Assembly (NCBI RefSeq): GCF_900143535.1
Contig: NZ_FRFA01000011.1
Span: forward strand, 1-64,000
Source: Tateyamaria sp. Alg231-49
GTDB taxonomy: Bacteria > Pseudomonadota > Alphaproteobacteria > Rhodobacterales > Rhodobacteraceae
Length of the DNA stretch: 64,000 nt
Direction of reading: 5' to 3'
Shown here: positions 5,451 through 23,346 of the stretch, piece after piece
Layout: each line of letters opens with the position of its first letter
Numbering within the stretch: position 1 is the stretch's first letter
The notes under the pieces: model-generated
What the model was told of the DNA's origin: nothing
Seen by the model: only the letters and a program-made list of their open reading frames with translations
Database searches by the model: none
Translations under genes and position numbers: made by a program

Positions 5451-6655
5451 CCCCCTTCACTCTGACGAACAGCGCGGCTCGCCGCGTGTTTCTGGACCGC
5501 CACGCCTTGACCGATGCTCCGCAGGGAGCGGCCCATGGTCAGGATTTGCTCAACCTGATTGAGCGACTGGGGTTTGTGCAACTCGACAGCATCAACACGG
5601 TGGCGCGTGCCCACGATCTTATCCTGTTTTCGCGAAAGGCCCGGTACCGACCAAAGGCACTAAAACTGCTTTACGAACGCGATCGGGCGCTGTTCGAACA
5701 CTGGACCCATGATGCAGCCGTCGTCCCAATTTCCTTTTATCCGTATTGGCATATGCGCCGCGAGCGGGACGCGGCCCTTCTGAGGCGGCGTTGGAAAGAT
5801 TGGCGTCGCGACGGTTTTGAGGGGCAGTTCCAATCTGTCCTCGACATGATCCGCGAACGGGGCCCAGTCTGTTCGGCGCAGGTCGGAGAGGGCGAAAAAC
5901 GCGGGTCAGGCGGGTGGTGGGACTGGCATCCTTCCAAAACGGCGCTGGAATACCTGTGGCGCAGCGGAGCGTTGACCGTCGTGAAGCGGCAGGGCTTTCA
6001 GAAATACTATGATTTGACAGAACGCGTGATTGACCGCACGACCATCGGAAACGCACCTGATACAGAAGAGACCATCGACTGGTGCTGCCGTGAGGCGTTG
6101 ACCCGGCTGGGCTTTGCCACTCATGGCGAGTTGGCGGCGTTCTGGGATCACATTTCCCCTGCTGAGGCGAAAGAGTGGTGCACCCGGGCGCTGGCAACGG
6201 GGCGGATCATCCAGATTTGTATCACCTGCGTCGATGGCACCGTCCGCCCCGCTTACGCGTGGCCAGACCTGCCTGATTGCCCAACCCAAAAATCTGACCC
6301 AACCCCACGATTGCGAGTTCTCAGCCCGTTTGACCCGGCCCTGCGCGATCGCAAACGGGCAGAGCGCCTGTTTGGCTTTGACTACCGCATCGAAATCTTT
6401 GTACCCGAGCCGAAACGCAAATACGGCTACTACGTCTTTCCACTTCTTGAAGGTGACCGGATCGTCGGACGTATCGACATGAAGGCATTTCGGGCCGAAG
6501 ACACCCTGCGCGTGCGTGCTGTTTGGCCAGAGCGTGGGGTGCGCTGGGGCAAAGGCCGCCAGCGCGCGCTTGAAACTGAACTGGATCGCGTTCTGCGTTT
6601 GGCTGGTGTGTCTAAACTCGCATTTGAAGATGCATGGTTGCGTACCCCACTTTAA
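5447..6655 (+). CDS. AlkZ-like (AZL) DNA glycosylase, AlkX/YcaQ family
   Basis: The 402-residue product belongs to the winged-helix HTH_42 family (COG3214), whose E. coli member YcaQ/AlkX unhooks interstrand DNA crosslinks. The catalytic motif QxD of the AlkX subgroup is present as Q45-L46-D47 in GFVQLDSINTVARAHDLILF. The winged-helix tandem follows, and the C-terminal barrel ends with GRIDMKA. The start is TTG overlapping the LacI stop. Its role would be repair of crosslinked or bulky N-alkylated DNA in the cytoplasm. Family confidence is high; crosslink specificity is inferred from the motif. Confidence 0.8.
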   Translation: MTPFTLTNSAARRVFLDRHALTDAPQGAAHGQDLLNLIERLGFVQLDSINTVARAHDLILFSRKARYRPKALKLLYERDRALFEHWTHDAAVVPISFYPYWHMRRERDAALLRRRWKDWRRDGFEGQFQSVLDMIRERGPVCSAQVGEGEKRGSGGWWDWHPSKTALEYLWRSGALTVVKRQGFQKYYDLTERVIDRTTIGNAPDTEETIDWCCREALTRLGFATHGELAAFWDHISPAEAKEWCTRALATGRIIQICITCVDGTVRPAYAWPDLPDCPTQKSDPTPRLRVLSPFDPALRDRKRAERLFGFDYRIEIFVPEPKRKYGYYVFPLLEGDRIVGRIDMKAFRAEDTLRVRAVWPERGVRWGKGRQRALETELDRVLRLAGVSKLAFEDAWLRTPL

Positions 6656-6693
6656 CCAATTGCGCGCAGTCCCAAAGCCGTTAGGTTCGCCAT

Positions 6694-7440
6694 ATGCAAA
6701 CCGCTTCATTCGTTCCAACAATCCGATCCGTGGGCCTGAATGGCCTGCTCGTAACATTTGGCGAACGTGCGACTGACGCGGCAAACCGCGCGGCCATCGC
6801 TTTTCGGGCCGAGGTAGACTCCATGGCTTGGCCCGAGATTGCCGAAAGCAGCAGTACGCTGGCGTCCGCATTTTTTCGTGTGGATTTGGCAGAGCATGAT
6901 TTTGAGGGCCTGAGAGACCGTTTGAACGCTGTTTTGGCTTCCAAGGACTGGACCACAACTGCGCTGCCTTCGAACCGAACACTGTGGACCATTCCAGCCG
7001 TATTTGGCGGCCCCCGCGCGCCACAATTGGCCGAGGCCGCAGAGGCCGCAGGGCTGAGCGTTGCCCAAGCCGAGGCCGCGCTGACCTCGACAAGGCTGCG
7101 CGTTCTCACCTTGGGCTTTGCGCCCGGCCAACCCTATCTTGGGACTTTGGGCGAAGAATGGAATATCCCGCGTCAGGTCGGCCTGTCCCCCAATATTCCC
7201 GCTGGTGCGCTGGTCGCCGCCGTGCGTCAGATTTGCCTCTTTACCAAGGACACACCCACCGGCTGGCGCCATGTTGGCCAATCCGCCTTTGCCTGTTTTC
7301 GCCCATCCAGCACGACACCCTTCCCCCTCGCACCCGGGGATGAGGTACAATTCACTGCAATCACCGACCAAGAGTTGGCACGCATAGAGGCGCATAATGC
7401 GGACGGTGCAGGCGGTGCATTGCGCGAGGTGCTCGAATGA
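6694..7440 (+). CDS. pxpB: 5-oxoprolinase subunit PxpB
   Basis: The 248-residue product matches the KipI/PxpB subunit of the prokaryotic ATP-dependent 5-oxoprolinase, which opens 5-oxo-L-proline to glutamate together with PxpA and PxpC. The diagnostic stretch GFAPGQPYLG (about residues 145-154), with the following PRQVGLSPNIPAGALV, is intact. It overlaps pxpC by four bases (ATGA), and pxpA follows, giving the usual B-C-A operon. The product is cytoplasmic. Confidence 0.9.
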   Translation: MQTASFVPTIRSVGLNGLLVTFGERATDAANRAAIAFRAEVDSMAWPEIAESSSTLASAFFRVDLAEHDFEGLRDRLNAVLASKDWTTTALPSNRTLWTIPAVFGGPRAPQLAEAAEAAGLSVAQAEAALTSTRLRVLTLGFAPGQPYLGTLGEEWNIPRQVGLSPNIPAGALVAAVRQICLFTKDTPTGWRHVGQSAFACFRPSSTTPFPLAPGDEVQFTAITDQELARIEAHNADGAGGALREVLE

Positions 7441-8462
7441 GGGGGCTAATCGTTCACACCGCCGGACCGGGTGTCGCAGTCCAAGATCTGGGGCGGCCAG
7501 GGTTCCTCGCGATGGGTTTGACAAATGGCGGAGCTGCCGACCTGCGCGCCGTGCACGAAGGGGCCGCACTCTTGCAGCAGGATCCCAGCCTTGCAGTGCT
7601 TGAAATGGTCGGGACCGGAGGCGCGTTTGAGGCGACCGAAGATTTGCGCATAGCCCTGACAGGCGGCGTGATGACGGCGGACGTCGACGGACGCGCCATC
7701 GCATGGAACGCAAGCCATGCCGTTCCCAAAGGAGCGCGGCTGACAATCGGACCGACACGCACCGGAACCTATGGGTATCTCCACGTCGGCGGTGGGTTTT
7801 CGACTGAGGCGAGCCTTGGCGCACGGGCCACTCACCTGTCCTGCGGTCTGGGTGCGCTGGTGGCAGCGGGTGACACACTGCCGGTCGGCCCCGACACCAG
7901 CCAAGAAGTGGGCATGACACTGGCCCCGGATGCGCGCTTCACCGGAGGCACGATTCGTGTCGTGCCCAGCATGCAAACCGAAGACTTCGACATCGCAATC
8001 CGAGACCGGTTTGCACAAACAGAGTTTCGCCGAGACCCACGGGCCAACCGGCAGGGCATCCGCATGGACAGCGACGGCGAAGGCTTTTCCAACCCCAAAG
8101 CCCTCAGCATCGTCAGCGAAGTCATTGTGCCCGGCGACATTCAGATTACCGGTGACGGCACACCTTTTGTGCTGATGGCTGAATGCCAGACCACAGGCGG
8201 GTACCCCCGCATTGGCACCGTTTTGCCCTGCGACTTGCCACGTGTGGCGCAAGCCCCGGCCGGTGCCAGCCTGCGCTTTGACTTTGTAACCCTAGAAGAG
8301 GGTGCCGCCATTCAAGCGCGCGCCAATTCTGATCTGGCCAAACTCACCGCCGCAGTGACACCTTTGGTGCGTGACCCGTCCACGATGCAGGACCTGCTCA
8401 GCTACCAGCTTATTGATGGCGCGATTTCGGCCACGCACCCCCATTTGGATGAAGGAGACTAA
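7437..8462 (+). CDS. pxpC: 5-oxoprolinase subunit PxpC (biotin-dependent carboxyltransferase-like fold)
   Basis: The 341 residues match KipA/PxpC, the partner of PxpB. The N-terminal GPGVAVQDLGRPGFLAMGLT segment is characteristic, as is the later GYPRIGTVLPCDLPRVAQ block. The length is close to the family norm (310-340). It starts inside the pxpB stop and ends five bases before pxpA. Confidence 0.9.
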   Translation: MRGLIVHTAGPGVAVQDLGRPGFLAMGLTNGGAADLRAVHEGAALLQQDPSLAVLEMVGTGGAFEATEDLRIALTGGVMTADVDGRAIAWNASHAVPKGARLTIGPTRTGTYGYLHVGGGFSTEASLGARATHLSCGLGALVAAGDTLPVGPDTSQEVGMTLAPDARFTGGTIRVVPSMQTEDFDIAIRDRFAQTEFRRDPRANRQGIRMDSDGEGFSNPKALSIVSEVIVPGDIQITGDGTPFVLMAECQTTGGYPRIGTVLPCDLPRVAQAPAGASLRFDFVTLEEGAAIQARANSDLAKLTAAVTPLVRDPSTMQDLLSYQLIDGAISATHPHLDEGD

Positions 8463-8466
8463 CCCC

Positions 8467-9234
8467 ATGCAAGTCGATCTGAACGCGGATATGGGCGAAA
8501 GCTTTGGCCCTTGGAAAATGGGCGACGATGCCGCCCTGCTTGGCACTGTGACATCGGCCAGTATTGCGTGCGGCGCCCACGCGGGCGATCCTGATGTTAT
8601 GGCGTCGACTATGCGGATCGCACTGGAAAAAGGGGTGGGGATCGGCTCGCATCCCGGTTTTGCCGACATTCAGGGCTTTGGACGTCGGCGTATCGACATG
8701 CCACTCGCCTCATTGCAAAACTCGATCCGCTGTCAAGTCGGGGCCAGCCTTGGCATGGCACGCAGTCTGGGCGCAACGGTGCGCCATATCAAACTGCACG
8801 GAGCACTCGGCAATATGACGTCCGAGGATGAGGACATGGCCCGTGGGTGCTATGAGGCGGCCCTGTCCGCCCACCCGGACGCGATCATCATGGTGCTGGC
8901 CGCCACCGCCCAAGAGCGCGCAGCGCGCAGTCTGGGAGCAGCCTTTGCCTGCGAGATTTTTGCCGACCGTGCCTATAATGCGGATGCGACGCTTGTGGAT
9001 CGACGCAAGCCCGGCGCGGTGATCCATGACGCTGAGCTTGCAGGCAAACGGATGGTCGAAATGGTGAAGGCCCAAGCCATCATCACCGAAGACGGCACCC
9101 GGATCGAAACACCAATCGACAGCATCTGCTGTCACGGTGACACCCCCGAAGCCGTAGACATCGCCGCGTCTGTGCGACGGACGCTTGAGGCCGAGGGGAT
9201 AACCGTCAAAGCATTTGACGGACGCCGAGGCTGA
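8467..9234 (+). CDS. pxpA: 5-oxoprolinase subunit PxpA (LamB/YcsF family)
   Basis: The ATG at 8467 gives a 255-residue LamB/YcsF protein beginning MQVDLNADMGESFGPWKMGD, the family's N-terminal signature. IACGAHAGDP, the KLHGALGN block and a C-terminal CCHGD motif contain the conserved His/Asp residues. The upstream in-frame extension overlaps pxpC and lacks family similarity, so it is not used. This is the third subunit of 5-oxoprolinase. Confidence 0.92.
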   Translation: MQVDLNADMGESFGPWKMGDDAALLGTVTSASIACGAHAGDPDVMASTMRIALEKGVGIGSHPGFADIQGFGRRRIDMPLASLQNSIRCQVGASLGMARSLGATVRHIKLHGALGNMTSEDEDMARGCYEAALSAHPDAIIMVLAATAQERAARSLGAAFACEIFADRAYNADATLVDRRKPGAVIHDAELAGKRMVEMVKAQAIITEDGTRIETPIDSICCHGDTPEAVDIAASVRRTLEAEGITVKAFDGRRG

Positions 9235-9356
9235 CCCCCCCCTTCGCCTGTCCAAACAAACCCTGATGCAGGCGATTGAGATACATGAACGTTGACGGCC
9301 CCGACGGCAAAGCACCGGGTGCGGCGCTCCCTTCTGACATTGGAAAGACTTGAACG

Positions 9357-10565
9357 ATGCAAACATTCCAAGGTGCAACGGTCTATCTGCCGGGCGAGAT
9401 TGCGGAAACGAACGTGACCATCGCGGATGGTCTGATCGCTGAAATCGGGGGGGCACCGCAAGGCGAGGTCATCGACGCGCGCGGGCTGATCCTTGCCCCT
9501 GCCCTGATCGACGTGCATGGCGATGCGTTTGAAAGACAAGTCATGCCGCGCCCCGGCGTTTACTTCCCCATGGAAACCGCTGTGTTGGAAACCGATAGGC
9601 AGCTGGCAGCCAACGGGATCGCAACGACCTATCACTCCATCACACTCAGCTTTGAACCGGGCCTGCGCAGCGTCGATAGAGGGCGCGAGATGATGCAAAC
9701 CATCCGTGATCTGGCCCCCCGCCTTTTGGTCGAGAACCGTATTCAGTTGCGTTGGGAAACCTTCGCCTTTGAGGCGCTTGAAACAATCGATTGGGCACTG
9801 GATGCGCCGCTGAGCCCTTCGCTTGCGTTCAATGATCACCTGTCGATGTCGATGCGCAGCTTTGATACGAAAATTCAGGATCGACAGTTCGAACACAGTC
9901 CCAACTATGCTCTCGCCGACCCGTATGACCCGCGCCTTGCAACGGTGCGGCACGAAAAACACGCGGCACGCGCGGGTCTGGCAATTGACGACTACATGGC
10001 GCTGATTGAGCGGGTGTGGGCGCGCCGTTCAGACGTACCGGGCGCAATGCAAACGCTTGCGGGCAAAGCCCGCGCCAAAGGCGTGCCAATGCTCAGCCAT
10101 GACGACACTCAGGTCGAAACGCGCCAGCATTATCGCGATATGGGCGTCACAGTGGCCGAATTCCCAATGACCATGGCGCCGATTAAAGACGCGCGGGCAA
10201 ATGGGGATACGATCATCTTCGGCGCGCCGAATGCGGTGCGCGGCGGCAGTCACATCGGATCACTTGCCGCGGGCGACATGGTCGAAGAGGGGCTGTGTGA
10301 CGTGCTGGCGTCAGATTACTACTACCCCGCTATGCTGGCGGCAGTGGATCGGTTGGACCGCGAAAAGCGCGCAGATCGATCGACGCTTTGGTCTTTGGTA
10401 TCGACAGGCCCAGCGCGCGCGATGCAGTTGGACGATCGTGGCGAGATTGCCGTGGGTCAACGCGCTGATCTGGTGCTGGTCGACTGGCCTGACGGCCGGA
10501 CTCCGGCTGTGCAAGGCACTTGGGTGGCCGGTCGCCCGGCATATCGCGCGCAGCCCGCGCACTGA
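9357..10565 (+). CDS. phnM: PhnM-like amidohydrolase (alpha-D-ribose 1-methylphosphonate 5-triphosphate diphosphatase)
   Basis: The 402-residue protein is an amidohydrolase-superfamily member of the PhnM type. DVHGDAFERQVMPRPGVYFP is the metal-binding region, SHDDTQ supplies a later His/Asp pair, and GAPNAVRGGSHIGS and ASDYYYPAML are PhnM blocks. In the C-P lyase pathway PhnM removes pyrophosphate from ribose 1-methylphosphonate 5-triphosphate. No other phn gene is in the window, so the gene is solitary here and may act in another context. A 122-base gap separates it from pxpA. Confidence 0.8.
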   Translation: MQTFQGATVYLPGEIAETNVTIADGLIAEIGGAPQGEVIDARGLILAPALIDVHGDAFERQVMPRPGVYFPMETAVLETDRQLAANGIATTYHSITLSFEPGLRSVDRGREMMQTIRDLAPRLLVENRIQLRWETFAFEALETIDWALDAPLSPSLAFNDHLSMSMRSFDTKIQDRQFEHSPNYALADPYDPRLATVRHEKHAARAGLAIDDYMALIERVWARRSDVPGAMQTLAGKARAKGVPMLSHDDTQVETRQHYRDMGVTVAEFPMTMAPIKDARANGDTIIFGAPNAVRGGSHIGSLAAGDMVEEGLCDVLASDYYYPAMLAAVDRLDREKRADRSTLWSLVSTGPARAMQLDDRGEIAVGQRADLVLVDWPDGRTPAVQGTWVAGRPAYRAQPAH

Positions 10566-11830: not shown

Positions 11831-13804
11831 TTACACCAGGTCAGCGTCTGTCAAGATCTCCACCAGGGCCGGGCCGTCCACATCGAGCGCCTTTTGCAAC
11901 GCCGCCTCGATGGCATCTGCCGCGACGACCTTTTCCCCGTGCGCACCGCAAATCTTGGCAAAGGCGGCGAAGGATGGGTTGTGCAGGTTGGTCTCCCAAA
12001 CCGGCCATTCACCGGAGCGTTGCTCTTTGGATATCTTGCCCAGCTCTCCGTTGTGCAAGAGGACATGGGTGATATCCATCCCGTACTTAACGGCAGTGGT
12101 CAGTTCCATCGGGTATTGGCCGAACCCACCATCGCCAGAAATCGAGATCACTTTGCGCCCCTTCAACCACTCGAAATCCTGCGTCGCAGCCCAAGCACCC
12201 ATACCCGCGGGAAAGCCAAAACCAATGGACCCAAGATAGCCAGACATCAGCACGCGCTGTCCCTTCGTCTCAAAATAGCGGCCAAACGAGTAGGTGTTGT
12301 TACCCACGTCCACAGCAATAATCGCATCGCTTGGCGCCACGCGGGACAACGCGGCAAAGATCGCCGCAGAGTGGATGCCTTTGCAGCCTTCCTCGCCCAA
12401 TCGGGTCTGTTTTTCGTCCTGCCACATCTGCCAACGTTCAGCCAGTTCGCCAACCTGATCGGGGGCATCGGCCGGTCGGTTGATTTGCGGCGCAATGCCT
12501 TCGCAAAATGCACCAATCTCTGCCCAGATCGGCAAGGTAACGGGATGGAACTTGCCCAACTGCATCCGTTCGTAATCGACCTGAATAATGGTCTTGCCCC
12601 GTTCAATCCCGGTGTGGTTGGAAAATGACGTGCCAAGGGTCAGGATAAGGTCCGCTTCGTTCATGAACCAACTGGCAATGGGCGTACCTGAGCGACCAAG
12701 GACGCCCGCGGCGTTAGGGTGATCATCCGCAATCAATCCCTTGCCCTTGAACGTCGTCAGAACCGGCGCACCCAGATCAGCGGCCAGTTTCGTGATCGCC
12801 TCCATATGATCCCACGCGCCGTGTCCCACCACGAGGATCGGGCGCTCCGCCTTGTTAAGCAAAGCGAGCGCATCCGAAACATCTTCATCGCTTGGCTTCA
12901 CAACCGCACGGCCCATGCGCCCATCGGGCGCGCCGGCTGGGTTGTCAGACGGATTGGTCTGCATATCGTCTGGAAAAATCAAATGCGCTACATCCTGTTC
13001 CACGAGCGCGTTTTTCATGGCCAGCGAAACAAGTTCAGAGTGGTTCGATGTCGACAGAACCGTTTGGCTGAATTTACTGACGGCGTCGAAGGCCGACGCC
13101 AGATCAATGTCCTGAAACGCGCCGGGTCCAAATACCTGCGTTTGAACCTGACCGGTCAACGCCAGTACAGGCGCGCGGTCCACTTTTGCATCCCACAGGC
13201 CGGTCAACAGGTTGGTGGCACCCGGTCCTGCAATGGTCAGGCAGGCCGCAGGATGGCCGGTCAACTTACCATAGGCCGAGGCGGCAAAGGCGGCCGCCCC
13301 TTCGTGACGGATGCCGATATACTTCATCTCACCCGCTTCAACGCGCATCCGTATGGCATCAGCAAGACCAAGGTTGGAATGCCCCACCATTCCGAACACG
13401 TGCTTGATACCCCAGTTGACCATGCTTTCGGCCATCTGATCGCTCACCGTGCGTTCATGGGGCGGCTCGGGTTCAAGCCCGACAAAGATCTCTTCGCCTT
13501 CGATCTTTACCGGATAAATCGTCTGGCCGGTATCCTCGTGGCCCCCGGGTGGCTTACCCGTCAGCGGATCAAAATCCCAACCGTGCCACGGGCATCGGAT
13601 CCAGCATTTGCCACCCTCTCCACGCTCAATTGAGCCCTCCCCCAGGGGGCCACGCTGGTGCGGGCAATGATTGTTCATCGCAGCCCACTGACCATCGAAA
13701 TGAGACAGGCAGATTGATGTGGTGCGCGCTGTGACCGTCTTGACCCGCCCTTCGGGAAGATCGCCGGTGTGTCCGACGCTGATCCAATCCAAAGTCTCGC
13801 TCAT
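11831..13804 (-). CDS. Rieske [2Fe-2S]-thiamine diphosphate enzyme fusion
   Basis: The ATG at 13804 overlaps the upstream stop (ATGA) and follows GGAGG; it gives 657 residues. Residues about 1-112 form a Rieske domain with C47-P-H49 and C71-P-W-H74 as cluster ligands. Residues about 115-657 form a complete ThDP enzyme of the acetolactate synthase/pyruvate oxidase type. E168 (in IGIRHEGAAAFAASAYGKLT) is the activating Glu, and GDGG at 557 with N585 forms the Mg/diphosphate motif. A Rieske module on a ThDP enzyme is unusual and suggests redox chemistry on an acyl- or hydroxyalkyl-ThDP intermediate, though it might be structural. The preceding gene is also a Rieske fusion. It is last in the long operon. 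Confidence 0.85.
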   Translation of the reverse strand: MSETLDWISVGHTGDLPEGRVKTVTARTTSICLSHFDGQWAAMNNHCPHQRGPLGEGSIERGEGGKCWIRCPWHGWDFDPLTGKPPGGHEDTGQTIYPVKIEGEEIFVGLEPEPPHERTVSDQMAESMVNWGIKHVFGMVGHSNLGLADAIRMRVEAGEMKYIGIRHEGAAAFAASAYGKLTGHPAACLTIAGPGATNLLTGLWDAKVDRAPVLALTGQVQTQVFGPGAFQDIDLASAFDAVSKFSQTVLSTSNHSELVSLAMKNALVEQDVAHLIFPDDMQTNPSDNPAGAPDGRMGRAVVKPSDEDVSDALALLNKAERPILVVGHGAWDHMEAITKLAADLGAPVLTTFKGKGLIADDHPNAAGVLGRSGTPIASWFMNEADLILTLGTSFSNHTGIERGKTIIQVDYERMQLGKFHPVTLPIWAEIGAFCEGIAPQINRPADAPDQVGELAERWQMWQDEKQTRLGEEGCKGIHSAAIFAALSRVAPSDAIIAVDVGNNTYSFGRYFETKGQRVLMSGYLGSIGFGFPAGMGAWAATQDFEWLKGRKVISISGDGGFGQYPMELTTAVKYGMDITHVLLHNGELGKISKEQRSGEWPVWETNLHNPSFAAFAKICGAHGEKVVAADAIEAALQKALDVDGPALVEILTDADLV

Positions 13805-15411
13805 GACAGTCCTCCAAACGCCACGCCCGAGATATCGGACATGTCCCTTTTCCACGTGGTCAGATCGCTTGCGTTAAACTTGCCAAGGTGATCGTGGCCA
13901 CAGGCCCGCGCCATCACCTGCATCAACTCAGTGCTTGCCTCGAAGAAATTGGCCAATTGGCGGGCTGACTTTTCCACGACCAGGCGGCTCACCAGATGCG
14001 GCTTCTGACTTGCAATACCCACCGGGCAGTTGTTCGTGTGGCACGCGCGCATGGCGATGCATCCAATCGCCTGCATCGCAGAATTGGACACTGCAATCGC
14101 GTCCGCACCCATAGCCAACGCTTTGACAAAATCAGCAGGCTTGCGCAGCCCGCCGGTGATGACCAGAGACACATCGTTGCGCTCAAGCCGGTCAAGATGC
14201 GCGCGGGCCCGTGCCAACGTAGGGATCGTGGGGACCGAGATGTTGTCACGGAAAATAATGGGGGCCGCACCCGTACCACCCCCGCGCCCATCAAGGATAA
14301 TGTAATCGACGCCCACGGTGAGAGCGGCATCAATATCCTTTTCGATGTGCTGGGCACTCAGCTTGTATCCAATCGGAATACCCCCAGTGCGATCCCGCAC
14401 CTCGTCGGCAAAATCCTTGATCTGCAGCGGGTCGCTCCAGTCAGGAAACCGCGCTGGGGAAATGGCGTCTTGGCCTTCGTTCAGCCCGCGCACTTCGGCG
14501 ATCTTACCGGTGACCTTGTGGCCGGGCAAATGGCCGCCCGTGCCCGTTTTGGCCCCCTGTCCACCTTTGAAATGGAACGCCTGGGCTTTGGCCAACTTGT
14601 CCCAAGTAAAGCCAAAGCGGCCCGACGCCAGTTCGTAGAAGTACTTGGAGTTCGCCTCCTGCTCTTCGGGCAACATGCCGCCTTCGCCCGAACAGATTCC
14701 TGTCCCAGCCAGTTCGGCACCGCGGGCAAGGGCGACTTTGGCGGGTTCTGAAAGCGCGCCATAAGACATGTCAGACACGAACAAAGGGATGTCGAGGCGC
14801 ATTGGTTTTTGCGCGTTTGGGCCGATGACGACTTCAGTACCGACGGCGTCGTTGTCCAGCAGTGGAGCTTTGTGCAATTGAGCCGTGATGATTTGGATAT
14901 CGTCCCAGTCCGGAAGCGTATGGCGCGGCACGCCCATAGCATCGACGACACCGTGATGGCCTGTCTTGGACAACCCATCCCGCGCGTATTGCTGGATCAG
15001 ACCGGTATACGGTTCTTCCTCAGTTCCGTGCGATGTGTCGGCATAAAGCCCAAGATAGCTGTCGCGATTAAAGGGCTGCGGGTTAGCGTGCGCCCATGCT
15101 GAAATCTCATCCGCATCGACACAAACGTCGTCAGTTTCGATCCAACTTTTGAACTTTGGAAGGGCCTCGTCATTGGCGTATTCGCTGACACCGCTATCCA
15201 GACGGTAATCCCAGTCATGCAGTCCACAAATCAGGTTGTTCCCACGCACAAAGCCATCCGACATCAACGCGCCCCGATGCAGACACCGCCCATAAAAAAC
15301 CGAGACTTCATCATCAAACCGCACCACCACCAAATCGACTTCGCCGACGAGCGCGTAGGCCGGGCTACGGTCGTCCAGCGCAGATAGCTGCGCCACAATT
15401 TCTTTTTTCAT
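13801..15411 (-). CDS. Rieske [2Fe-2S]-glutamate synthase FMN-domain fusion
   Basis: From the ATG at 15411 the protein has 536 residues. A Rieske domain occupies about 1-105 (C43-L-H45 and C62-G-L-H65). A glutamate-synthase-type FMN barrel follows, with KGGQGAKTGTGGHLPGHKV and GGGTGAAP loops. The 3Fe-4S motif is C451-x5-C457-x4-C462, in the CHTNNCPVGIASQ block. No glutaminase domain or GltD partner is present. In glutamate synthase this domain reduces 2-iminoglutarate. Here the Rieske domain could feed electrons to FMN in place of GltD (inference). The 4-base overlap with the Rieske-ThDP gene argues for a shared function. Confidence 0.85.
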   Translation of the reverse strand: MKKEIVAQLSALDDRSPAYALVGEVDLVVVRFDDEVSVFYGRCLHRGALMSDGFVRGNNLICGLHDWDYRLDSGVSEYANDEALPKFKSWIETDDVCVDADEISAWAHANPQPFNRDSYLGLYADTSHGTEEEPYTGLIQQYARDGLSKTGHHGVVDAMGVPRHTLPDWDDIQIITAQLHKAPLLDNDAVGTEVVIGPNAQKPMRLDIPLFVSDMSYGALSEPAKVALARGAELAGTGICSGEGGMLPEEQEANSKYFYELASGRFGFTWDKLAKAQAFHFKGGQGAKTGTGGHLPGHKVTGKIAEVRGLNEGQDAISPARFPDWSDPLQIKDFADEVRDRTGGIPIGYKLSAQHIEKDIDAALTVGVDYIILDGRGGGTGAAPIIFRDNISVPTIPTLARARAHLDRLERNDVSLVITGGLRKPADFVKALAMGADAIAVSNSAMQAIGCIAMRACHTNNCPVGIASQKPHLVSRLVVEKSARQLANFFEASTELMQVMARACGHDHLGKFNASDLTTWKRDMSDISGVAFGGLS

Positions 15412-15535: not shown

Positions 15536-16405
15536 TCAGGCAGGCTCAAAGATCTCACGGAAACGGTCGATACAGGCGCGGAACCCGGCCTCAAAATCGC
15601 CGTTTCCGGGGTGATACACGCTTTCGAAGGACACAACACCTGCGTAGCCGTCACTGCGCAAGGCATCCGCCATGGGTTTGAACAACGGACCCAATTGCCC
15701 GTGCCCCATCTCACGCACTTCCAACGTGGCACGGGGCGTATCGACCAGCACGTCCTTGATGTGGATATGGCCAAGCAGGCCGGCTTTCACCTCATCATAC
15801 CCGTCCGGATAGGCCAGCTCGTGACACCAGCAGTTGTTCGCGGGATCCCACAGCACCTTCAGCACGTCGGCCGCGTCCAGTTCTTCGATCAACTTGCGCG
15901 CAGTGTAGTTCGAGTTGACCATGGTCCCGTTGCCGGTTTCGACGACCAGCGTGATTTCCTCACTCCGCGCCAATTCCACCGCGGGTGCAATCAACGGAGC
16001 CACCTGATCCCAAGCGCCCTTGGCGACATTCCAGCGTTCTGCTCCATTTCGACCCCACAGGATTTGTTCCTTCTTCGGAGTCATGATGCGCACCAGCGGG
16101 CTGCCGACCACATGGGCCATGTCGATCGCTCGCTTGAGCGCGTCCATATGCTGGGTGTGCAAAGGATCGCCGGGCCGGTTCGCAGATGTGGTACCGGCAA
16201 ATATGTGCCGGGACAGGCAACTAACCGGCTTTCCCCGGTCGCGCAGAAGGCTGTTGATAGCTCTGATTTCCTCTGCGGGATGATCGCCGACTTCAGTATC
16301 GCCTACGAATTGCAGCTCGGCGTAGGTCAGCTCAAATTCGTCCATAACGTCGATGGCATGGGCCAAATCCCGGCTGATCCCGTCGGTGATAACACCCAGC
16401 TTCAT
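15536..16405 (-). CDS. Sugar phosphate isomerase/epimerase family TIM-barrel protein
   Basis: The 289 residues form an AP-endonuclease-2-like (xylose-isomerase-like) TIM barrel beginning MKLGVITDGISRDLAHAIDV. Metal ligands are likely in LVVETGNGTMVNS (Glu), WDPANNCW (Asp), HIHIKD (His/Asp) and SFESVYHP (Glu). It overlaps the upstream dehydrogenase gene by ATGA. Members isomerise or epimerise keto-sugars or inosose intermediates. The substrate here is unknown. Confidence 0.8.
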   Translation of the reverse strand: MKLGVITDGISRDLAHAIDVMDEFELTYAELQFVGDTEVGDHPAEEIRAINSLLRDRGKPVSCLSRHIFAGTTSANRPGDPLHTQHMDALKRAIDMAHVVGSPLVRIMTPKKEQILWGRNGAERWNVAKGAWDQVAPLIAPAVELARSEEITLVVETGNGTMVNSNYTARKLIEELDAADVLKVLWDPANNCWCHELAYPDGYDEVKAGLLGHIHIKDVLVDTPRATLEVREMGHGQLGPLFKPMADALRSDGYAGVVSFESVYHPGNGDFEAGFRACIDRFREIFEPA

Positions 16406-17313
16406 CGGGTCACCTTGGCGCCGTCGCGGTGCAACTCGGCGCCCACGATCTCTTCGATCACACGGGTTGCAACCCAGTTGTCTCCATCAGGGTGGCGGGT
16501 GCGTCCGGCGTGGAAAATCTGCATCGCAGCCGCCGCCGTATGGAGTGGGACGCCAAGCTCCTCGCCCAGGGCCATCGAGATTGTCAGGTCCTTATGCATG
16601 GTGTTGATGTGGCTTCCCGTCCCTTCGAACTGACGGTCGATGATCTTTTCCAGTGCATTGTTGGTGATGCCAGACCCCGCGGATGAAGTTGAAAACACGT
16701 CCAATATCACTTGCCCCGGCACACCTGCCTTAGCGGCCAGTGCGGCAGCTTCGAATGTCGCGGAAAAGATGGACCCGATCAGGGATTGCAGGCACGCTTT
16801 GACAACCTGACCCTCGCCCGGCGCCGTTCCGACGTGATGGATAGAGGCGGACACAGCCTCCATCACCGGCCGCGCATCGCCCAGAACGTTGTCTGGCGCA
16901 GCGGCCATCATAGTCAGAGTACCGCCCTGCGCTCCGGGATAGCCACCCGATACTGGGCTGTCGATCAACTTGAGGCCTGTATCTTTCAACCCTTCACCAA
17001 TGGCACGTGCCTCAGCCGGTTTGATGGTTGAAGTCAGCAAAATGGTTCCGCCGGGTGCCATGGAACTGGCCAAGCCGCCTTCGCCGAGGATAACGTCATG
17101 CGCCTCGGCCCCCTTCATCACCATGACAAAGACGTATTGGGCATTTGCCCCCACATCGGCAGTTGAGGTCGCGGCGTGGCCGCCCATCTGCGCAAAGGCA
17201 CTGTGGCGTTCCGGGATCACGTCCCGGCCCCAAGTTTCAAATCCGTTGGCGATCAGGTTCTTGGCCAGTCCACTGCCCATATCTCCCAATCCAATAACAC
17301 CCACTGACGGCAT
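16402..17313 (-). CDS. Beta-hydroxyacid dehydrogenase (3-HIBADH/LtnD-like), NAD(P)-dependent
   Basis: The 303-residue protein has the N-terminal Rossmann motif GVIGLGDMGSGLA, the substrate-binding DSPVSGGYPGAQGG loop and the catalytic Lys in QVVKACLQSL. These are the classic layout of 3-hydroxyisobutyrate/threonate dehydrogenases. AAAAGGAGCATCTG before the ATG is a good ribosome site. It probably oxidises a hydroxyacid intermediate in the operon's pathway. Confidence 0.82.
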   Translation of the reverse strand: MPSVGVIGLGDMGSGLAKNLIANGFETWGRDVIPERHSAFAQMGGHAATSTADVGANAQYVFVMVMKGAEAHDVILGEGGLASSMAPGGTILLTSTIKPAEARAIGEGLKDTGLKLIDSPVSGGYPGAQGGTLTMMAAAPDNVLGDARPVMEAVSASIHHVGTAPGEGQVVKACLQSLIGSIFSATFEAAALAAKAGVPGQVILDVFSTSSAGSGITNNALEKIIDRQFEGTGSHINTMHKDLTISMALGEELGVPLHTAAAAMQIFHAGRTRHPDGDNWVATRVIEEIVGAELHRDGAKVTR

Positions 17314-17465
17314 CAGATGCTCCTTTTCTCATCCATTTTTCCGGTGGGGTTTCACGTCATGCGCGGACGCCGGGCAGGTCCAAAAGACACCCCCTGCCCT
17401 ATCGCGGCACGCTTTGGCGCGCGCCATCAGGCTAGCACAGGATTGGCAAAAGGCGATTCAGAATT

Positions 17466-18464
17466 TCAGTGGATATCGATGGATGTACCGGTTTGCGCCG
17501 CGTGCTTGATGGCTTCGATCACTTGCACCGCGCGCAAACCGTCCGCCGCGCTGACCAGCGGTGCCGCGCGGCCTGCGATCACGTCAGAAAAATGTGAAAT
17601 CTGTGCAGACAGTGGATCACTCAAGGGCAAGGGATGGCGCGTTTGATCCATCGGCGCCCACCAGTCCGGGCCAGCTTTTTGGCTCCATACGGTAAGGTTG
17701 GGAAGGGAAAGTGATCCATGTGTTCCACCAATCAAGTAGGAGGATTGATCCGTCTTGGGGTAGGCTGGGTTTTCGCCAGCCGTCAGCTCCCAACTCCACG
17801 GGCCAAGGCTAACATCAGACAAGTTCACTGTACCGAGCGCACCGTTGGCAAATCGTAAAATGGCAACGCTGACTTCCTCGGCTTCTGCCCCTCGGACTGC
17901 GTTGCTCTCGAAGGCTTGTACACTCGCAATCGGTCCACACAGGTGCATCAGCACATCCACATCGTGGATCAAGTTAATAAACAACGGTCCTGCACCCGCG
18001 CCCTGCCGCCAGTCGGCCTCGTAATAATGGTCGGGTTTGGGCAACCAGCATTGCCCATGCACTGCCGTCAGAGCGCCCAAGACACCAGAGTCGATGATCT
18101 CTTTGGCCTTGGCCACGAGTGGGTTATGGCGGCGATGATGGCCTACAAGAATGGGCACATCACCAGCACAAGCCACCAAATCAGCACCTTCGGCAGCAGT
18201 ACCGGCCAGCGGTTTTTCGATCAGCATTGGGCAACCCGCACCGATCAGCTCCTTGGCCATCGGCGCGTGCAACGCATTTGGCACCGCCAGAATGATTCCG
18301 TCAGACACTCTCGCTAGTTCCGCCAAGTCACGCGCACGCGGCCACTCCATTTCCGACACCGAAGGATCAAGCACCGCGGACAGTGTCACATTCGGCGTTC
18401 GATCGATGGCTGCGATATGCTGCCGCCCAATCAAACCCGCCCCGGCCACCCCAATCCGCGTCAT
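17466..18464 (-). CDS. Gfo/Idh/MocA-family oxidoreductase (1 of 4)
   Basis: The ATG at 18464 overlaps the upstream stop (ATGA); a GTG three codons earlier is less likely. The Rossmann motif GVAGAGLIGRQH and the EKP motif (LIEKPLAG) define a nicotinamide-dependent sugar or cyclitol oxidoreductase. The C-terminal domain includes INLIHDVDVLMHLCG, where His/Asp would be catalytic. It is the last of four consecutive paralogues. A 152-base gap without a recognised gene follows before the LtnD-like gene. Confidence 0.82.
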   Translation of the reverse strand: MTRIGVAGAGLIGRQHIAAIDRTPNVTLSAVLDPSVSEMEWPRARDLAELARVSDGIILAVPNALHAPMAKELIGAGCPMLIEKPLAGTAAEGADLVACAGDVPILVGHHRRHNPLVAKAKEIIDSGVLGALTAVHGQCWLPKPDHYYEADWRQGAGAGPLFINLIHDVDVLMHLCGPIASVQAFESNAVRGAEAEEVSVAILRFANGALGTVNLSDVSLGPWSWELTAGENPAYPKTDQSSYLIGGTHGSLSLPNLTVWSQKAGPDWWAPMDQTRHPLPLSDPLSAQISHFSDVIAGRAAPLVSAADGLRAVQVIEAIKHAAQTGTSIDIH

Positions 18465-19504
18465 GGTTGCCACCCTTCATACATTGGATGGTCGGCGCCC
18501 AAGGGCAACGCCACAGGTATGCTACTGCGATGCGAGGCATAGATCGCCGTCACCAGCTCAATCGAACCCGCTCCGTCCTCAAGAGAGACAGCAGAGTTTG
18601 GCTCTCCACCGAGGGAGTTGGCAATTTCCGAAAGGAAGCCTGCAAATCCGGATGGACGCGAGGGGACGTTCGCAACGATAGCATCTACCTCTCTCTGCCG
18701 GTCCGGATCGCGGGCCTTAAAAGTCCACTCTCCCTCACCGGGAGTGTACGGAAGCGTGTGTGAAGTCGCTGTCAGGTGTTCGTAAACAAAGCGCAAGCGC
18801 GTTTCATCTGTCGCGCCCCCAAGGGTGATCGAACTCGTCGCGATGGCCCCACCCTCAAGATCAAAGATCAGTGCGGCAGTATCTTCCGTTTCAATCGGAT
18901 TGACGAGTGTTCCAAGCCGCGCGGTTACTTGGCGGATGGGCGCCACAAAATGGGACAACAGATCATGCGCATGGATTGCGTGCCCCAGAACTGCTCCGCC
19001 CTGTTCACCCGCCCAAGTCCCGCGCCAAGGAATGGCATAATAATCCGCCGCACGATTCCAATGCGTCTCAATTGACGCTGCGCGCGGCCGCCCCGTCATC
19101 CCGGCGGCACGCAAAGCATTCAACTGATCAAATGCTGGACCAAAGCGGTACTGAAACACAGGAAAGACCTGCTTGCCCGCCTTGCGTGCAGCGGCGCGGA
19201 TGGCATCAACCTGCGCCATTGATGTCGCCAGCGGCTTCTCGCAGATCACATGTTTTCCAGCTTCCACAGCAGCAATAGCGACCGGTGCGTGCATGTGCGG
19301 CGGCAAACATATGTCGATCACGTCAACGTCCGCCTGCAATGCAGCGTCTATATCCGCCAGACCCACAATGTCGTCACCACATAATGCTGCGCGCCGGTCT
19401 GCATCCTGATCAGCAAGGTGCGTAACCGCGAACGCGTCCAACTCCCGATATGCCGCGAGGTGCTGCGCCCCAATTCCACCACCAAGAATAGCAACGCGGA
19501 TCAT
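18461..19504 (-). CDS. Gfo/Idh/MocA-family oxidoreductase (2 of 4)
   Basis: The 347-residue protein has the GGGIGAQHLAAY dinucleotide motif and ICEKPLATS. The GHAIHAHDLLSHFVAPIRQV segment supplies the His of this family's active site. It overlaps both neighbours by four bases. It is clearly diverged from the adjacent paralogues, which argues for separate steps rather than a recent duplication. Confidence 0.82.
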   Translation of the reverse strand: MIRVAILGGGIGAQHLAAYRELDAFAVTHLADQDADRRAALCGDDIVGLADIDAALQADVDVIDICLPPHMHAPVAIAAVEAGKHVICEKPLATSMAQVDAIRAAARKAGKQVFPVFQYRFGPAFDQLNALRAAGMTGRPRAASIETHWNRAADYYAIPWRGTWAGEQGGAVLGHAIHAHDLLSHFVAPIRQVTARLGTLVNPIETEDTAALIFDLEGGAIATSSITLGGATDETRLRFVYEHLTATSHTLPYTPGEGEWTFKARDPDRQREVDAIVANVPSRPSGFAGFLSEIANSLGGEPNSAVSLEDGAGSIELVTAIYASHRSSIPVALPLGADHPMYEGWQP

Positions 19505-20508
19505 GATACACCTGCCTCTGCAAGGCGCTGCGCCTCAAGGGCCAGCTCCATGACTTTGAAGCAGTGCGTTTGGCTCATGGCCGTCTCAGTCCGGTGCGCG
19601 ATATCGTGTGCAAAGCGGTCGAAATAGGGCAACCCGGCCTCGCGCCCGTCCATGGTTTCGCAGCGCGCGCCGTTGACCAGGATCAGGCTGTCCGTACCTG
19701 CGCGGCCAGCTACATCCACGTACTTGCGCAACTCGATGTAGCCGTCAGTGCCCAGCAAGGTCAGGCGGCCATCCCCCCAATTCGGCAGGGCATCTGGGGT
19801 GTACCAGTCCACGCGAATGTAACCCGAAGCTTGGGGCGCACGAAGTGCAACCTCTCCAAAATCTTGCAGACCTGAATCGCCCGGATTGGCGTGATTGGCG
19901 ACGTGTGCCATCGTTACGTCAGCACTTTCGGAGCCAGTGAAATGAAGGAATTGGTCAATCTGATGTGACGCAATATCCGTCAGCACGCCCCCGTATCTAT
20001 CCCGCTCAAAGAACCATTCCGGGCGCGTTGCACGATTTAGACGGTGGGGGCCAAGGCCGGTTGTGTGGACCACACGCCCAATGGCTCCTTCTTGGACCAA
20101 TTGATCCGCCAACGTAACGCAAGGGACCTCAAAACGTTCAGAGAAATTGATCGACCAGATACGACCTGTTTCGGCCACCGCTGCCTTGATCTGATCCAAC
20201 TGCTCGATGGTGGTGCAACCCGGCTTGTCCGTCATGACATCATGGCCGGTCTGCATCGCGCGAATAGACAAGGCTGCGCGATCCGCAGGGATCGCAGAGA
20301 CAAGAGCAAGGTCAGCGCCAGCCGCAAGCGCATCCTCGAGGGTCGCGAACCGATGAAGCTCAGGAAAACGTTCGACATACCCCGCCAGCGGTTGCGGTGT
20401 ACCGTCAGTCCAATAGCCAAGGCAGCGACCACCAATGCGCACCATGTTTTCAGTCATGCCATAGATGTGACGGTGATCCAGCCCAAGGGCGACGAAACTA
20501 AGGGTCAT
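19501..20508 (-). CDS. Gfo/Idh/MocA-family oxidoreductase (3 of 4)
   Basis: The 335 residues fit the family, but the N-terminus (MTLSFVALGLDHRHIYGMTE) departs from the usual GxGxxG motif and EKP is replaced by DKP (VMTDKPGCT). DIASHQIDQFLHFTGS carries the catalytic His region. The altered cofactor motif suggests changed nucleotide binding or a tightly bound cofactor. It overlaps both neighbours by ATGA. Confidence 0.78.
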   Translation of the reverse strand: MTLSFVALGLDHRHIYGMTENMVRIGGRCLGYWTDGTPQPLAGYVERFPELHRFATLEDALAAGADLALVSAIPADRAALSIRAMQTGHDVMTDKPGCTTIEQLDQIKAAVAETGRIWSINFSERFEVPCVTLADQLVQEGAIGRVVHTTGLGPHRLNRATRPEWFFERDRYGGVLTDIASHQIDQFLHFTGSESADVTMAHVANHANPGDSGLQDFGEVALRAPQASGYIRVDWYTPDALPNWGDGRLTLLGTDGYIELRKYVDVAGRAGTDSLILVNGARCETMDGREAGLPYFDRFAHDIAHRTETAMSQTHCFKVMELALEAQRLAEAGVS

Positions 20509-21542
20509 GTGGGAACATCCGTAAGTGTTTGGTTGCGCGCGGCTTGTTCCATTGCATGAATGACGGCATGCACGTGCAACGCCTCGTCCATGGGGACCAA
20601 AGGGGCCGCCTCGTTGCGCACTGCCTGCGCAAAATCTTCGATCATGGACTGGTGCCAGCCATGGGAAAACGCCATCGGATCAGCGCCACCACCTGTGCCC
20701 GCACTTGTATCGGGGGTCATCAAGTCTTGTCGGCCGTCATGCCAGTCGATCCGCAGTTTATCGCCCTGTAGCAGGACCTGCGCTTTGGTCGTGGTGATCG
20801 CTATGCTTTCCGCACCTCCCGGATAGGCGGCTGTGCTGGCGCTCAACACACCCGACGCCCCTGAGGCAAAGGTCAAAAGGCCCGATGCAATGTCTTCGGC
20901 TTCCATACGGTGCAACGGGCTGGTGCGCATTTGGGCCTGCACCTGCGCGACAGACCCGACCAACCACAGAGCCAGATCAAGGCTGTGGATCGCTTGATTG
21001 ATCATCACGCCGCCCCCATCACGGTCATAGCTGCCGCGCCCGGGTTCATCGTAATAGGCCTGATCGCGCCACCAAGGAACACGGATGTCCACGTGGACAA
21101 TGTCGCCCAGATCACTTGCCAACAGTTTGGCCTTCAACGCCTGAGACGCCGCGCGCGTGCGGTGCTGAAAGCACACACCGGCCAGCACACCAAAGCGGGC
21201 ATAGGTGGCCCCGATTGCACGGGCCGCATCCAGCGTCCGCTCAATCGGTTTTTCCATGAGCGTTGGAACTCGGGCCTCCGCCAAAGCATCGGCAAAACCA
21301 GCCCGCGCGTTCGGCGGGGTAATCAGGATGGCCATATCAGGTGGGGTAGACAAAGCCTCCCCAACATCCGTGAATGCTGGGACCGCATGTCCGACAGTAT
21401 CCCCTGCCTGCGCGCAAAACGCCTTTGTGCGCACCGGGTCACGACCCAGAACACCCGCCAGACGCAACCCCGCCTGGTTGTCCCGCAACGCCAGTACATG
21501 GGTCTGGGCCACCATGCCCGCGCCAATCAGCAACACATCCAT
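20505..21542 (-). CDS. Gfo/Idh/MocA-family oxidoreductase (4 of 4)
   Basis: I use the ATG at 21542 (MDVLLIGAGMVAQTHVLALR), which has AAAGG just upstream; an ATG at 21566 would add eight polar residues. LMEKPIERT is the EKP motif and INQAIHSLDLALWLVG the active-site region. This is the first of the four paralogues to be transcribed, 35 bases after the PfkB kinase gene. Confidence 0.8.
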   Translation of the reverse strand: MDVLLIGAGMVAQTHVLALRDNQAGLRLAGVLGRDPVRTKAFCAQAGDTVGHAVPAFTDVGEALSTPPDMAILITPPNARAGFADALAEARVPTLMEKPIERTLDAARAIGATYARFGVLAGVCFQHRTRAASQALKAKLLASDLGDIVHVDIRVPWWRDQAYYDEPGRGSYDRDGGGVMINQAIHSLDLALWLVGSVAQVQAQMRTSPLHRMEAEDIASGLLTFASGASGVLSASTAAYPGGAESIAITTTKAQVLLQGDKLRIDWHDGRQDLMTPDTSAGTGGGADPMAFSHGWHQSMIEDFAQAVRNEAAPLVPMDEALHVHAVIHAMEQAARNQTLTDVPT

Positions 21543-21577
21543 TGTGACCTTTGCCCCCTTTCGCAAAGCATCCCCAC

Positions 21578-22456
21578 CTACTTTGGTAGAATGGCACCTT
21601 TGTGCCCCACAACCTGCATCGCAAGGTCATGCCCAGCTCGCAATGCGTTGGCCTGCGAGGCCCCCGTCAACGACGCCCCCAGATACCCACCGTTGAAACT
21701 GTCACCCGCCGACGTGGTGTCGACGACCGTCTCTGCCTTGGGGAAATCGTAGGTTGCCCCCGTCTGCAAGCACATCGGCCCCAACTCACCGCGCTTCAAC
21801 GCTCCGGTGCGCCCCAGATCAAGGAAACGACGTGCGATGACCTCGGGCGTTTCACCAGTGATCTCCTGTTCGTCATCAACAGACGGCAACGCGATATCAG
21901 ACAACGCCCACATCGCCTCGTTCTGAGTCCGGGCGGTTTCTGGATCCATCCAAAGACGGGCCCGGTAGTTGCTGTCATAGCAAACACGCCCTCCGGATTT
22001 GCGAAACGCCTGCAAAAACCGCATCAACGCAGACCGGGTAGAAGCGGAAAGGATCGCCATCGTGATGCCGGACAGATAAATCACGTCATACTGTGCAAGT
22101 GCCGCAAAATCAGGCCCCTGATCTGTCACAAATGTCAGCCGCGCCGCAGAGCTGTCGCGCCAGTAGGTAAAGGACCGTTCGCCAGTATCATCGGTGGTGA
22201 TGGCATAAAGACCGGGAGTGCCTTGGGGATCACGTTGGATGCCACCCGTGCCGATGTCTTCGGATGCGATAAAATCCGCAATTCGGTCTGAAAAAGCATC
22301 CGTGCCCAACCGAGTGATATAATCGATCTGCAACTCCGGCGCGCTGCGTTTGAGGTAGATGGCTGTATTCAGCGTATCACCGGCCACACCTACACCAGCA
22401 GAATCTCCCGCCATCGATAGCTCGATCATTGCCTCGCCAATTGCTGCGATTTTCAT
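21578..22456 (-). CDS. PfkB-family carbohydrate kinase (2-keto-3-deoxygluconate kinase-like)
   Basis: From the ATG at 22456 (MKIAAIGEAMIELSM) the product has 292 residues and the ribokinase-fold signature DTTSAGDSFNGGYLGA, whose Asp is the catalytic base. The sequence resembles KDG kinases. With the altronate-dehydratase-like gene in the same operon this suggests phosphorylation of a 2-keto-3-deoxy acid, followed by an aldolase encoded elsewhere. It overlaps the EamA gene by ATGA. Confidence 0.82.
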   Translation of the reverse strand: MKIAAIGEAMIELSMAGDSAGVGVAGDTLNTAIYLKRSAPELQIDYITRLGTDAFSDRIADFIASEDIGTGGIQRDPQGTPGLYAITTDDTGERSFTYWRDSSAARLTFVTDQGPDFAALAQYDVIYLSGITMAILSASTRSALMRFLQAFRKSGGRVCYDSNYRARLWMDPETARTQNEAMWALSDIALPSVDDEQEITGETPEVIARRFLDLGRTGALKRGELGPMCLQTGATYDFPKAETVVDTTSAGDSFNGGYLGASLTGASQANALRAGHDLAMQVVGHKGAILPK

Positions 22457-23346
22457 GCGGTTTCCTTTCGCCCCGTGCGCCACCACACGATAAATCCTGA
22501 ACAAACGATGATACTTGCACCCAGTATGGTCCACCCATCCGGGACGTCATTGAACACGACATAACTGGCGATGGCCAGATACAGAAGGAAGCTATAGGTG
22601 TAAGGCATCAGCGTATTGGCCGGCGCATAGGCATGTGCGCGCGAAAATATTTCATGGCCCGCCCATCCCCACAATCCAAGCCCGATCATAAGCCCCCATT
22701 GCAGAGGGGTCTCTGGCGTAACCCAGACGTTCAACGCAAATGGCAACAGCATCACGGCACCCATAGCGCCCATATAGAACTGCATGGTTTCTGCCGCGAC
22801 CACCCCGGACAATTTGCGGGTGATAATCGAGTAAAGCGCAAGCGACACCGCATTGTAGACATTGAGCAGCGCGATCCAGTGAAAGTCCGCATTAAACGGT
22901 CGGATCACAATCAAAACGCCAACAAAACCCAACATAATCGCGCCCCAGCGCCAGGGGCCGACCCGTTCACCCAACAAAGGCCAGCTTAGCGCGCAAACGA
23001 TGATCGGTGCGGAAAACATGATCGATCCCGTCACCGTCAGAGACAGATACTTGAGCGTGATAAAGTTGAACATCGTGGCTGAGGCCAGCAGAAATCCTCG
23101 AAACAGCACCAGCACAAGGTGATCTGTCTGAAAGTTCGACCAATTGGCCCCCTGCCGCAGCACCAGTGCCGTCGAGATGATGAAATGCGGCAGGTACCGC
23201 ATGAACGCCAGTTGCATCGCGGGCAGGCCAGCCACAATCAGCCATTTGACCGACGTATCTATCAGGGAGAAAAAGGCATAGGCCCCCAGCGTCATTGCGA
23301 TGCCGAGGGCCGCGCGGTCTTGCTGTGCGCGTGCCGCGATGGCCAC
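22453..23346 (-). CDS. EamA/DMT-family transporter
   Basis: About ten hydrophobic helices in two EamA repeats fill the protein, for example TLGAYAFFSLIDTSVKWLIV and the SIIVCSGFIVWWRTG end. I take the GTG at 23346, four bases after the preceding stop, with AAGGGG as ribosome site; a later ATG (MTLGAYAF) is possible. It adds a second transporter to an operon that already has a TRAP system, perhaps for export of an intermediate or side product. Confidence 0.78.
   Translation of the reverse strand: MAIAARAQQDRAALGIAMTLGAYAFFSLIDTSVKWLIVAGLPAMQLAFMRYLPHFIISTALVLRQGANWSNFQTDHLVLVLFRGFLLASATMFNFITLKYLSLTVTGSIMFSAPIIVCALSWPLLGERVGPWRWGAIMLGFVGVLIVIRPFNADFHWIALLNVYNAVSLALYSIITRKLSGVVAAETMQFYMGAMGAVMLLPFALNVWVTPETPLQWGLMIGLGLWGWAGHEIFSRAHAYAPANTLMPYTYSFLLYLAIASYVVFNDVPDGWTILGASIIVCSGFIVWWRTGRKETA

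Follow-up and report, generated by a model that had tools for sequence, protein, structure and literature searches.

Rieske domains fused to a glutamate-synthase-like and a pyruvate-oxidase-like protein in Tateyamaria, and a co-occurring ferric-reductase-type membrane protein

In Tateyamaria sp. Alg231-49, a member of the Rhodobacteraceae, two overlapping genes on the minus strand each encode a Rieske domain at the N-terminus of a different enzyme. The window, that is the whole stretch of DNA analysed, comprises the first 64,000 nucleotides of contig NZ_FRFA01000011.1 (assembly GCF_900143535.1). The upstream gene, GltBR, encodes a glutamate-synthase-like protein of flavin mononucleotide (FMN) type, and the downstream gene, ThDPR, a thiamine diphosphate (ThDP) enzyme of pyruvate-oxidase type. 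Rieske domains are known mainly from cytochrome bc complexes and oxygenase systems. A third Rieske fusion, here called FRR, is a ferric-reductase-type membrane protein (PF01794) with a C-terminal PF00355 domain. The features of the pair are as follows.

15411 (ATG) to 13801 (stop), minus strand: GltBR (GltB-Rieske), 536 amino acids, a GltB-type FMN/[3Fe-4S] protein with an N-terminal Rieske domain.
15181..15396, minus strand: Rieske domain of GltBR, residues 6-77, PF00355 at E 8.8e-11, ligands C43, H45, C62 and H65.
13897..14850, minus strand: glutamate-synthase FMN barrel of GltBR, residues 188-505, PF01645 (Glu_synthase) at E 8e-92.
14026-14061, minus strand: cysteines C451, C457 and C462 of GltBR, from alignment with solved glutamate synthases.
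13801..13804, minus strand: overlap of 4 bases, ATGA, between the ThDPR start and the GltBR stop, from the sequence.
13804 (ATG) to 11831 (stop), minus strand: ThDPR (ThDP-Rieske), 657 amino acids, a pyruvate-oxidase-like ThDP enzyme with an N-terminal Rieske domain.
13550..13786, minus strand: Rieske domain of ThDPR, residues 7-85, PF00355 at E 5.3e-16, ligands C47, H49, C71 and H74.
11855..13450, minus strand: TPP_enzyme N, M and C domains of ThDPR (Pfam), residues 119-650, with E168 and the ThDP loop D558-G559.

Both Rieske domains are recognized by Pfam, with their ligands at the positions named in the original prediction, and the 4-base overlap that it described is the ATGA listed above. 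It had also assigned complete FMN/3Fe-4S features to the first protein and complete ThDP features to the second, which agrees with the Glu_synthase match and with three cysteines that align with those of solved glutamate synthases, and likewise with the three ThDP domains found by Pfam. No glutaminase domain was found in GltBR by Pfam, as had been predicted. We take C451, C457 and C462 to be the 3Fe-4S ligands of GltBR, and E168 is presumably the catalytic glutamate of ThDPR. Among the homologues extracted from other genomes, the Rieske ligand motif is kept in 74 of 74 for GltBR (those which the gene caller extracted from 78 loci over 5 kb, four having been lost to overlapping false open reading frames), in 53 of 53 for ThDPR and in 37 of 38 for FRR, the single miss being a copy truncated where the fetched locus ends. 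The Rieske ligands of GltBR and its three cysteines are invariant in 27 aligned homologues. In ThDPR the Rieske ligands, E168 and D558-G559 are invariant in 59 sequences, among them four of haloarchaeal origin and one encoded on a plasmid of a mycobacterium. The GDG motif varies at its first G, for which the two haloarchaeal rows shown have S. Pfam scores and ligand conservation together rule out chance motif matches.

Relatives of GltBR turned up at 377 places in a scan of species genomes, and the best 80 of the 377 were kept as loci, 78 of which exceed 5 kb. ThDPR lies within the fetched flank (at most 10 kb) in 57 of the 80 loci, and FRR is a recurrent neighbour of GltBR, being found in 38 of the 78 loci over 5 kb. 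Co-occurrence was counted in a same-family sample of 394 genomes, almost every one from a different genus, 64 of which matched GltBR at E 1e-90. The matches form two classes, namely GltBR itself in 38 genomes, where the match begins at residues 1-6 (four are partial or split), and a close paralogue without the Rieske domain in 29 genomes (two are partial, with the N-terminus outside the match); three genomes carry both. One GltBR match in two pieces (G184:C1:2589310-2591136) is possibly an interrupted or frameshifted copy. ThDPR was found in 21 genomes of the sample (E 1e-150) and FRR in 30 (E 1e-60). GltBR and ThDPR occur together in 20 genomes (p 3e-22), GltBR and FRR in 21 (p 8e-18), and ThDPR and FRR in 18 (p 2e-20), although these p values overstate independence, the genomes being related to one another. 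The paralogue without the Rieske domain served as a control, and it is not associated with ThDPR or FRR (p 0.38-0.55).

The genes are also linked. Within 5 kb of each other lie GltBR and ThDPR in 17 of 20 genomes, GltBR and FRR in 14 of 21, and ThDPR and FRR in 10 of 18; GltBR and ThDPR come within 300 bp in 10 of the 20 genomes carrying both. Judged by coordinates, 7 of the 17 linked genomes have FRR between GltBR and ThDPR, and 2 others have it next to the pair. The original prediction took the two soluble fusions for one redox unit. That they co-occur and are linked is borne out, with GltBR present in 20 of the 21 ThDPR genomes, whereas the third fusion, present in 18 of those 21, was unforeseen. 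Given how regularly FRR accompanies ThDPR, and how often it is placed next to or in the middle of the pair, a closed redox loop of GltBR and ThDPR is improbable. On a weakly resolved tree built from 69 GltBR sequences, each from a locus at which ThDPR had been found or which extended more than 6 kb to both sides, the link to ThDPR changes at least 10 times, compared with a mean of 13.8 and a minimum of 10 after shuffling; the link is therefore not one inherited event.

Both soluble fusions are also present on haloarchaeal plasmids, with complete ligands. Full-length GltBR is found on plasmids of three haloarchaea, and ThDPR on those of four haloarchaea and one Mycobacteroides; the two genes lie within 6 kb of each other on two haloarchaeal plasmids and about 17 kb apart on a third.

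In the genome of the window, FRR is encoded on another contig (C16) in the order c5-FRR-c3-c14, unlinked to the GltBR-ThDPR pair. The small membrane genes c5 and c14 flank FRR, and c3, also a small membrane gene, follows it. Elsewhere the orders c4-GltBR-ThDPR-FRR-c3 (L057) and GltBR-c5-FRR-c3-c14-ThDPR (L049) occur, the latter also with c4 in front (L178). Six histidines before the Rieske domain are invariant in 21 aligned copies of FRR. Four of them, H89, H101, H171 and H184, could form two heme pairs; H171 and H184 have the H-X12-H spacing quoted for such pairs, and two hemes are likely as far as the histidine pattern goes. The c3 protein has one hydrophobic N-terminal segment, so that it is probably membrane-anchored, followed by a domain with invariant C159, C163, H176, C179 and C183. 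This C-x3-C, H, C-x3-C motif, on an OB-fold-like model, is seen for instance in L121 (8806-9576, minus strand) and L075 (13025-13783). No Pfam match to c3 was found, and its model has no Foldseek match at E 0.001 or better. VIA-align placed OB-fold proteins among its rows (best Z 7.5, root-mean-square deviation 3.3, 84 aligned residues), a match no better than common arrangements give, and mainly over residues 50-144.

Two other neighbours were considered. The alphaproteobacterial antiporter c4, found in 33 of the 78 loci, is nearest to a K+/H+ antiporter model, below cut-off; the haloarchaeal antiporter is 30% identical over 226 residues, and the mycobacterial one best matches a CPA2 model, again below cut-off, which makes a weak case for a conserved antiporter as universal partner. 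A family c22 follows ThDPR in L113 (13615-14463), L072, L074, L100, L102 and L109. It is DUF5996-like in L113, below the Pfam cut-off, and no FRR was seen beside these c22 genes.

As to the origin of the fusions, it had been claimed that neither core family normally carries a Rieske domain, a statement to be qualified for GltBR, whose close core relatives have small redox domains of other kinds at the corresponding position. The closest of them without a Rieske domain have twin CDGSH motifs there (19 of 20 fetched, with Pfam zf-CDGSH confirmed on one) and share about 64-70% core identity with GltBR. In a tree of 30 cores, the bacterial Rieske, haloarchaeal Rieske and CDGSH types form one clade with support 97/96, the order inside which is unresolved, the outgroups being long branches. 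A more distant relative has a rubredoxin-like domain, below the Pfam cut-off, an example being the N-terminal domain of a glutamate-synthase-like FMN protein on a Monoglobus plasmid (L148, 1749-3176). A GltBR paralogue in the window's own genome has two N-terminal hydrophobic segments.

The Rieske domains of GltBR and ThDPR are unlike each other. When a profile of the GltBR domain was scored against a set of Rieske domains from its own genome, that of ThDPR came lowest of those compared (6.6 bits), compared with 18.3 for FRR and 17-30 for the others. Plain BLAST with the GltBR domain differs on which is furthest, since it gave ThDPR as the weakest match and FRR as none. ThDPR and FRR have mutually best-matching Rieske domains, though in the FRR profile ThDPR is barely ahead of a small ferredoxin-like protein. 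A single Rieske domain duplicated into GltBR and ThDPR is rejected because of the lowest rank of ThDPR against the GltBR profile, and for the same reason the two proteins probably recruited their domains separately, as judged from these profile scores.

For ThDPR, the best solved match is pyruvate dehydrogenase [cytochrome], or PoxB (3eya, E 5e-65). ThDPR ends near position 532 of the 576 of the pyruvate-oxidase profile, and all 59 sequences end alike. Because it stops where the membrane tail of PoxB begins, the Rieske domain is a plausible substitute electron outlet. ThDPR probably binds flavin adenine dinucleotide (FAD).

Taken together, these data suggest an electron-transfer system so far undescribed, in which GltBR, ThDPR and FRR form a Rieske-tagged redox set, the soluble enzymes exchanging electrons with each other and with FRR where it is present. 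We would give this reading about an even chance. ThDPR would carry out the oxidative decarboxylation of a 2-oxo acid and GltBR an FMN reaction of amino-acid or 2-oxo-acid type, both of them two-electron chemistry on small acids, and the Rieske domains would hand on the electrons singly, between GltBR and ThDPR in contact with each other and to the Rieske domain of FRR, and so into the membrane. FRR would be a membrane protein probably containing b hemes. In ThDPR the Rieske domain would replace the C-terminal membrane tail by which PoxB reaches quinone, and in GltBR the twin CDGSH clusters found in the proteins nearest to it. A shared network is preferred because FRR is a membrane protein, probably holds hemes and has a Rieske domain of its own, which together make it an obvious partner for both enzymes, provided that this domain faces the cytoplasm. 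In a bolder form, which we think possible but doubtful, the set would be an NAD-independent route of entry into respiration, where soluble ThDP/FAD and FMN/[3Fe-4S] dehydrogenases that acquired Rieske domains separately both deliver electrons to the Rieske domain of a membrane protein with hemes, and this protein passes them across the membrane, perhaps to the Cys-rich OB-fold-like c3, the parts having spread between bacteria and haloarchaea.

Several observations weigh against the reading of a shared network. ThDPR is rare, being found in 5 of 299 genomes of a phylum sample; the two of these five that are outside the family sample (G440 and G593) also hold GltBR and FRR within a few kb. ThDPR was not found at E 1e-150 in 18 of the 38 GltBR genomes, and at the thresholds used 14 of the 38 have GltBR without either partner; an inspection by eye of five loci of such lone genes, where the gene had been extracted, found no common partner. 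Conversely, GltBR is missing from 9 of the 30 genomes with FRR. As FRR can stand without GltBR and GltBR without both partners, the set is modular and not obligate. Three genomes (G126, G266 and G313) have adjacent GltBR and ThDPR and no FRR even at E 1e-5, where only Rieske-part matches were found. A plasmid search at E 1e-30 detected FRR in Rhizobium alone, so that the haloarchaeal pairs may work without it, plasmids having been searched and haloarchaeal chromosomes not. At the level of the proteins, the predicted structure of GltBR has a mean predicted local distance difference test (pLDDT) score of 52.5, being confident in the Rieske part only, with most of the barrel below 50. ThDPR scores 374 bits against the best pyruvate-oxidase model, far below its cut-off of 742, and its invariant K590 aligns with a Phe of PoxB that we take to carry electrons to FAD. 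In FRR, the spacing between H89 and H101 is X11, compared with the X12 or X14 quoted for heme pairs, and hydropathy gives four or five hydrophobic segments, the full hit set varying by copy.

Next after the network ranks a closed couple of two enzymes, because of those three genomes with the pair and no FRR. Here GltBR would receive, from one Rieske domain to the other, the electrons that ThDPR releases in oxidative decarboxylation and would use them for reductive amination or a different reduction at FMN, with FRR optional or unrelated. No partner of ThDPR is more constant than GltBR (20 of 21 genomes, compared with 18 of 21 for FRR), the two genes overlap in the window and are often within 300 bp of each other elsewhere, and haloarchaeal plasmids hold both. 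Yet 9 of the 17 linked genomes have FRR either between the two genes or next to them, its co-occurrence with them is about as strong, and 18 of the 38 GltBR genomes are without ThDPR; on balance we consider a closed couple unlikely.

Lower still we place an explanation by stress, for which the chance is slight. The Rieske domains would be oxidant-responsive switches, and the genes would be grouped by a common stress response, not by mutual electron transfer. Stress-type neighbours do exist: divergent genes for an extracytoplasmic function (ECF)-type sigma factor and a zf-HC2-type protein are upstream in L074, L100 and L178 (Pfam-checked in L100 only), an ECF-type sigma factor alone is in L107, MsrP adjoins GltBR in L062 with a like gene in L111, and MerA is near the haloarchaeal pairs (model-checked in L136). 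Of 12 loci with the CDGSH sister genes, 5 have a hemerythrin-type gene and 5 a GST-type gene (Pfam-checked in L183). However, these neighbours are scattered and the counts are raw, made without background comparison, and electron transfer accounts better for the presence of complete ligands in three distinct catalytic proteins. An identity with RclA was considered for the haloarchaeal flavoprotein in L136 and is ruled out, the protein passing the MerA cut-off. In L183, positions 6269-9476 hold a CDGSH-type glutamate-synthase-like gene followed by the hemerythrin gene and the GST-like gene.

Least probable of all is an inward flow, in which FRR draws electrons from the quinone pool or the periplasm and passes them through the Rieske domains to a reductive reaction of GltBR, like an NAD(P)H-independent glutamate-synthase-like enzyme: glutamate synthase is normally a consumer of electrons, and in L078, L103 and L106 FRR adjoins a GltBR gene whose fetched flank contains no ThDPR, but the potentials of Rieske ferredoxins and quinol are high for glutamate synthesis, and ThDPR, an oxidizing type of enzyme, belongs to the set.

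The surroundings of the pair in the window were also examined. Positions 15536-31244 (minus strand) hold an adjoining sugar-acid-like cluster, with several labels given by eye, which contains a TRAP transporter, a galactarate-dehydratase-like protein, two PhyH-like proteins, a KDG-kinase-like protein, four Gfo/Idh-type oxidoreductases, two HIBADH-type dehydrogenases and one sugar-isomerase-like protein. A second such cluster at 34673-40071 (plus strand), labelled by eye, contains an SDR, an IlvD/Edd-type dehydratase, a FAH-type protein, a D-2-hydroxyacid dehydrogenase and a mandelate-racemase-type enolase. A link of the adjoining sugar-acid operon to the pair was rejected, for its gene set is found only in eight Tateyamaria loci (L036-L043), several of which have other genes separating the operon from the pair, and elsewhere there are single or distant copies only (L059, L086 and L105). 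A promoter and terminator scan gave signal at or below the shuffled level.

What these fusions have in common is a Rieske domain added to a ThDP enzyme, to an FMN glutamate-synthase-like enzyme and to a ferric-reductase-type membrane protein, all of which travel together. If electrons are exchanged among them, this would be a modular way of wiring soluble metabolic enzymes to the membrane, and the role of CDGSH and Rieske glutamate-synthase-like proteins would become testable in a marine bacterium. A literature search over titles and passages of open-licence PMC papers found no treatment of the ThDP-Rieske fusion or of the trio.

Regarding known systems, the nearest to GltBR is the type 5 CISD protein, which joins twin CDGSH motifs to a glutamate-synthase FMN domain (PMC3174974, PMC5859297). 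The two share a subgroup of FMN core and a small [2Fe-2S] module at the N-terminus, where the published proteins have two CDGSH motifs and GltBR a Rieske domain instead, and GltBR is thus a Rieske variant of this published kind (PMC3174974). In the family sample the CDGSH-type genes, unlike GltBR, show no link in occurrence to either ThDPR or FRR.

With glutamate synthase GltB, GltBR has in common the FMN barrel and the three cysteines. Its length is 536 amino acids, compared with 1472-1520 for the solved GltB chains, it scores 135 bits against the NCBIfam GltB model with a cut-off of 1047, and the GltB loop SPPPHHDIYSIEDL is replaced. Since both the glutaminase domain and this SPPPHHD loop are missing, its substrate need not be 2-oxoglutarate.

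Pyruvate oxidase, or PoxB, is the best NCBIfam and PDB match of ThDPR and covers all three ThDP domains, whereas ThDPR has an extra N-terminal Rieske domain and no C-terminal membrane tail. Finally, Rieske is listed among the domains joined to the ferric-reductase domain (FRD) in a published paper (PMC3591440). FRR resembles this superfamily, including its MsrQ and NOX kin, in PF01794, invariant histidines and a Rieske domain, and differs from it in being encoded with c5, c3 and c14 and in co-occurring with two soluble Rieske enzymes.

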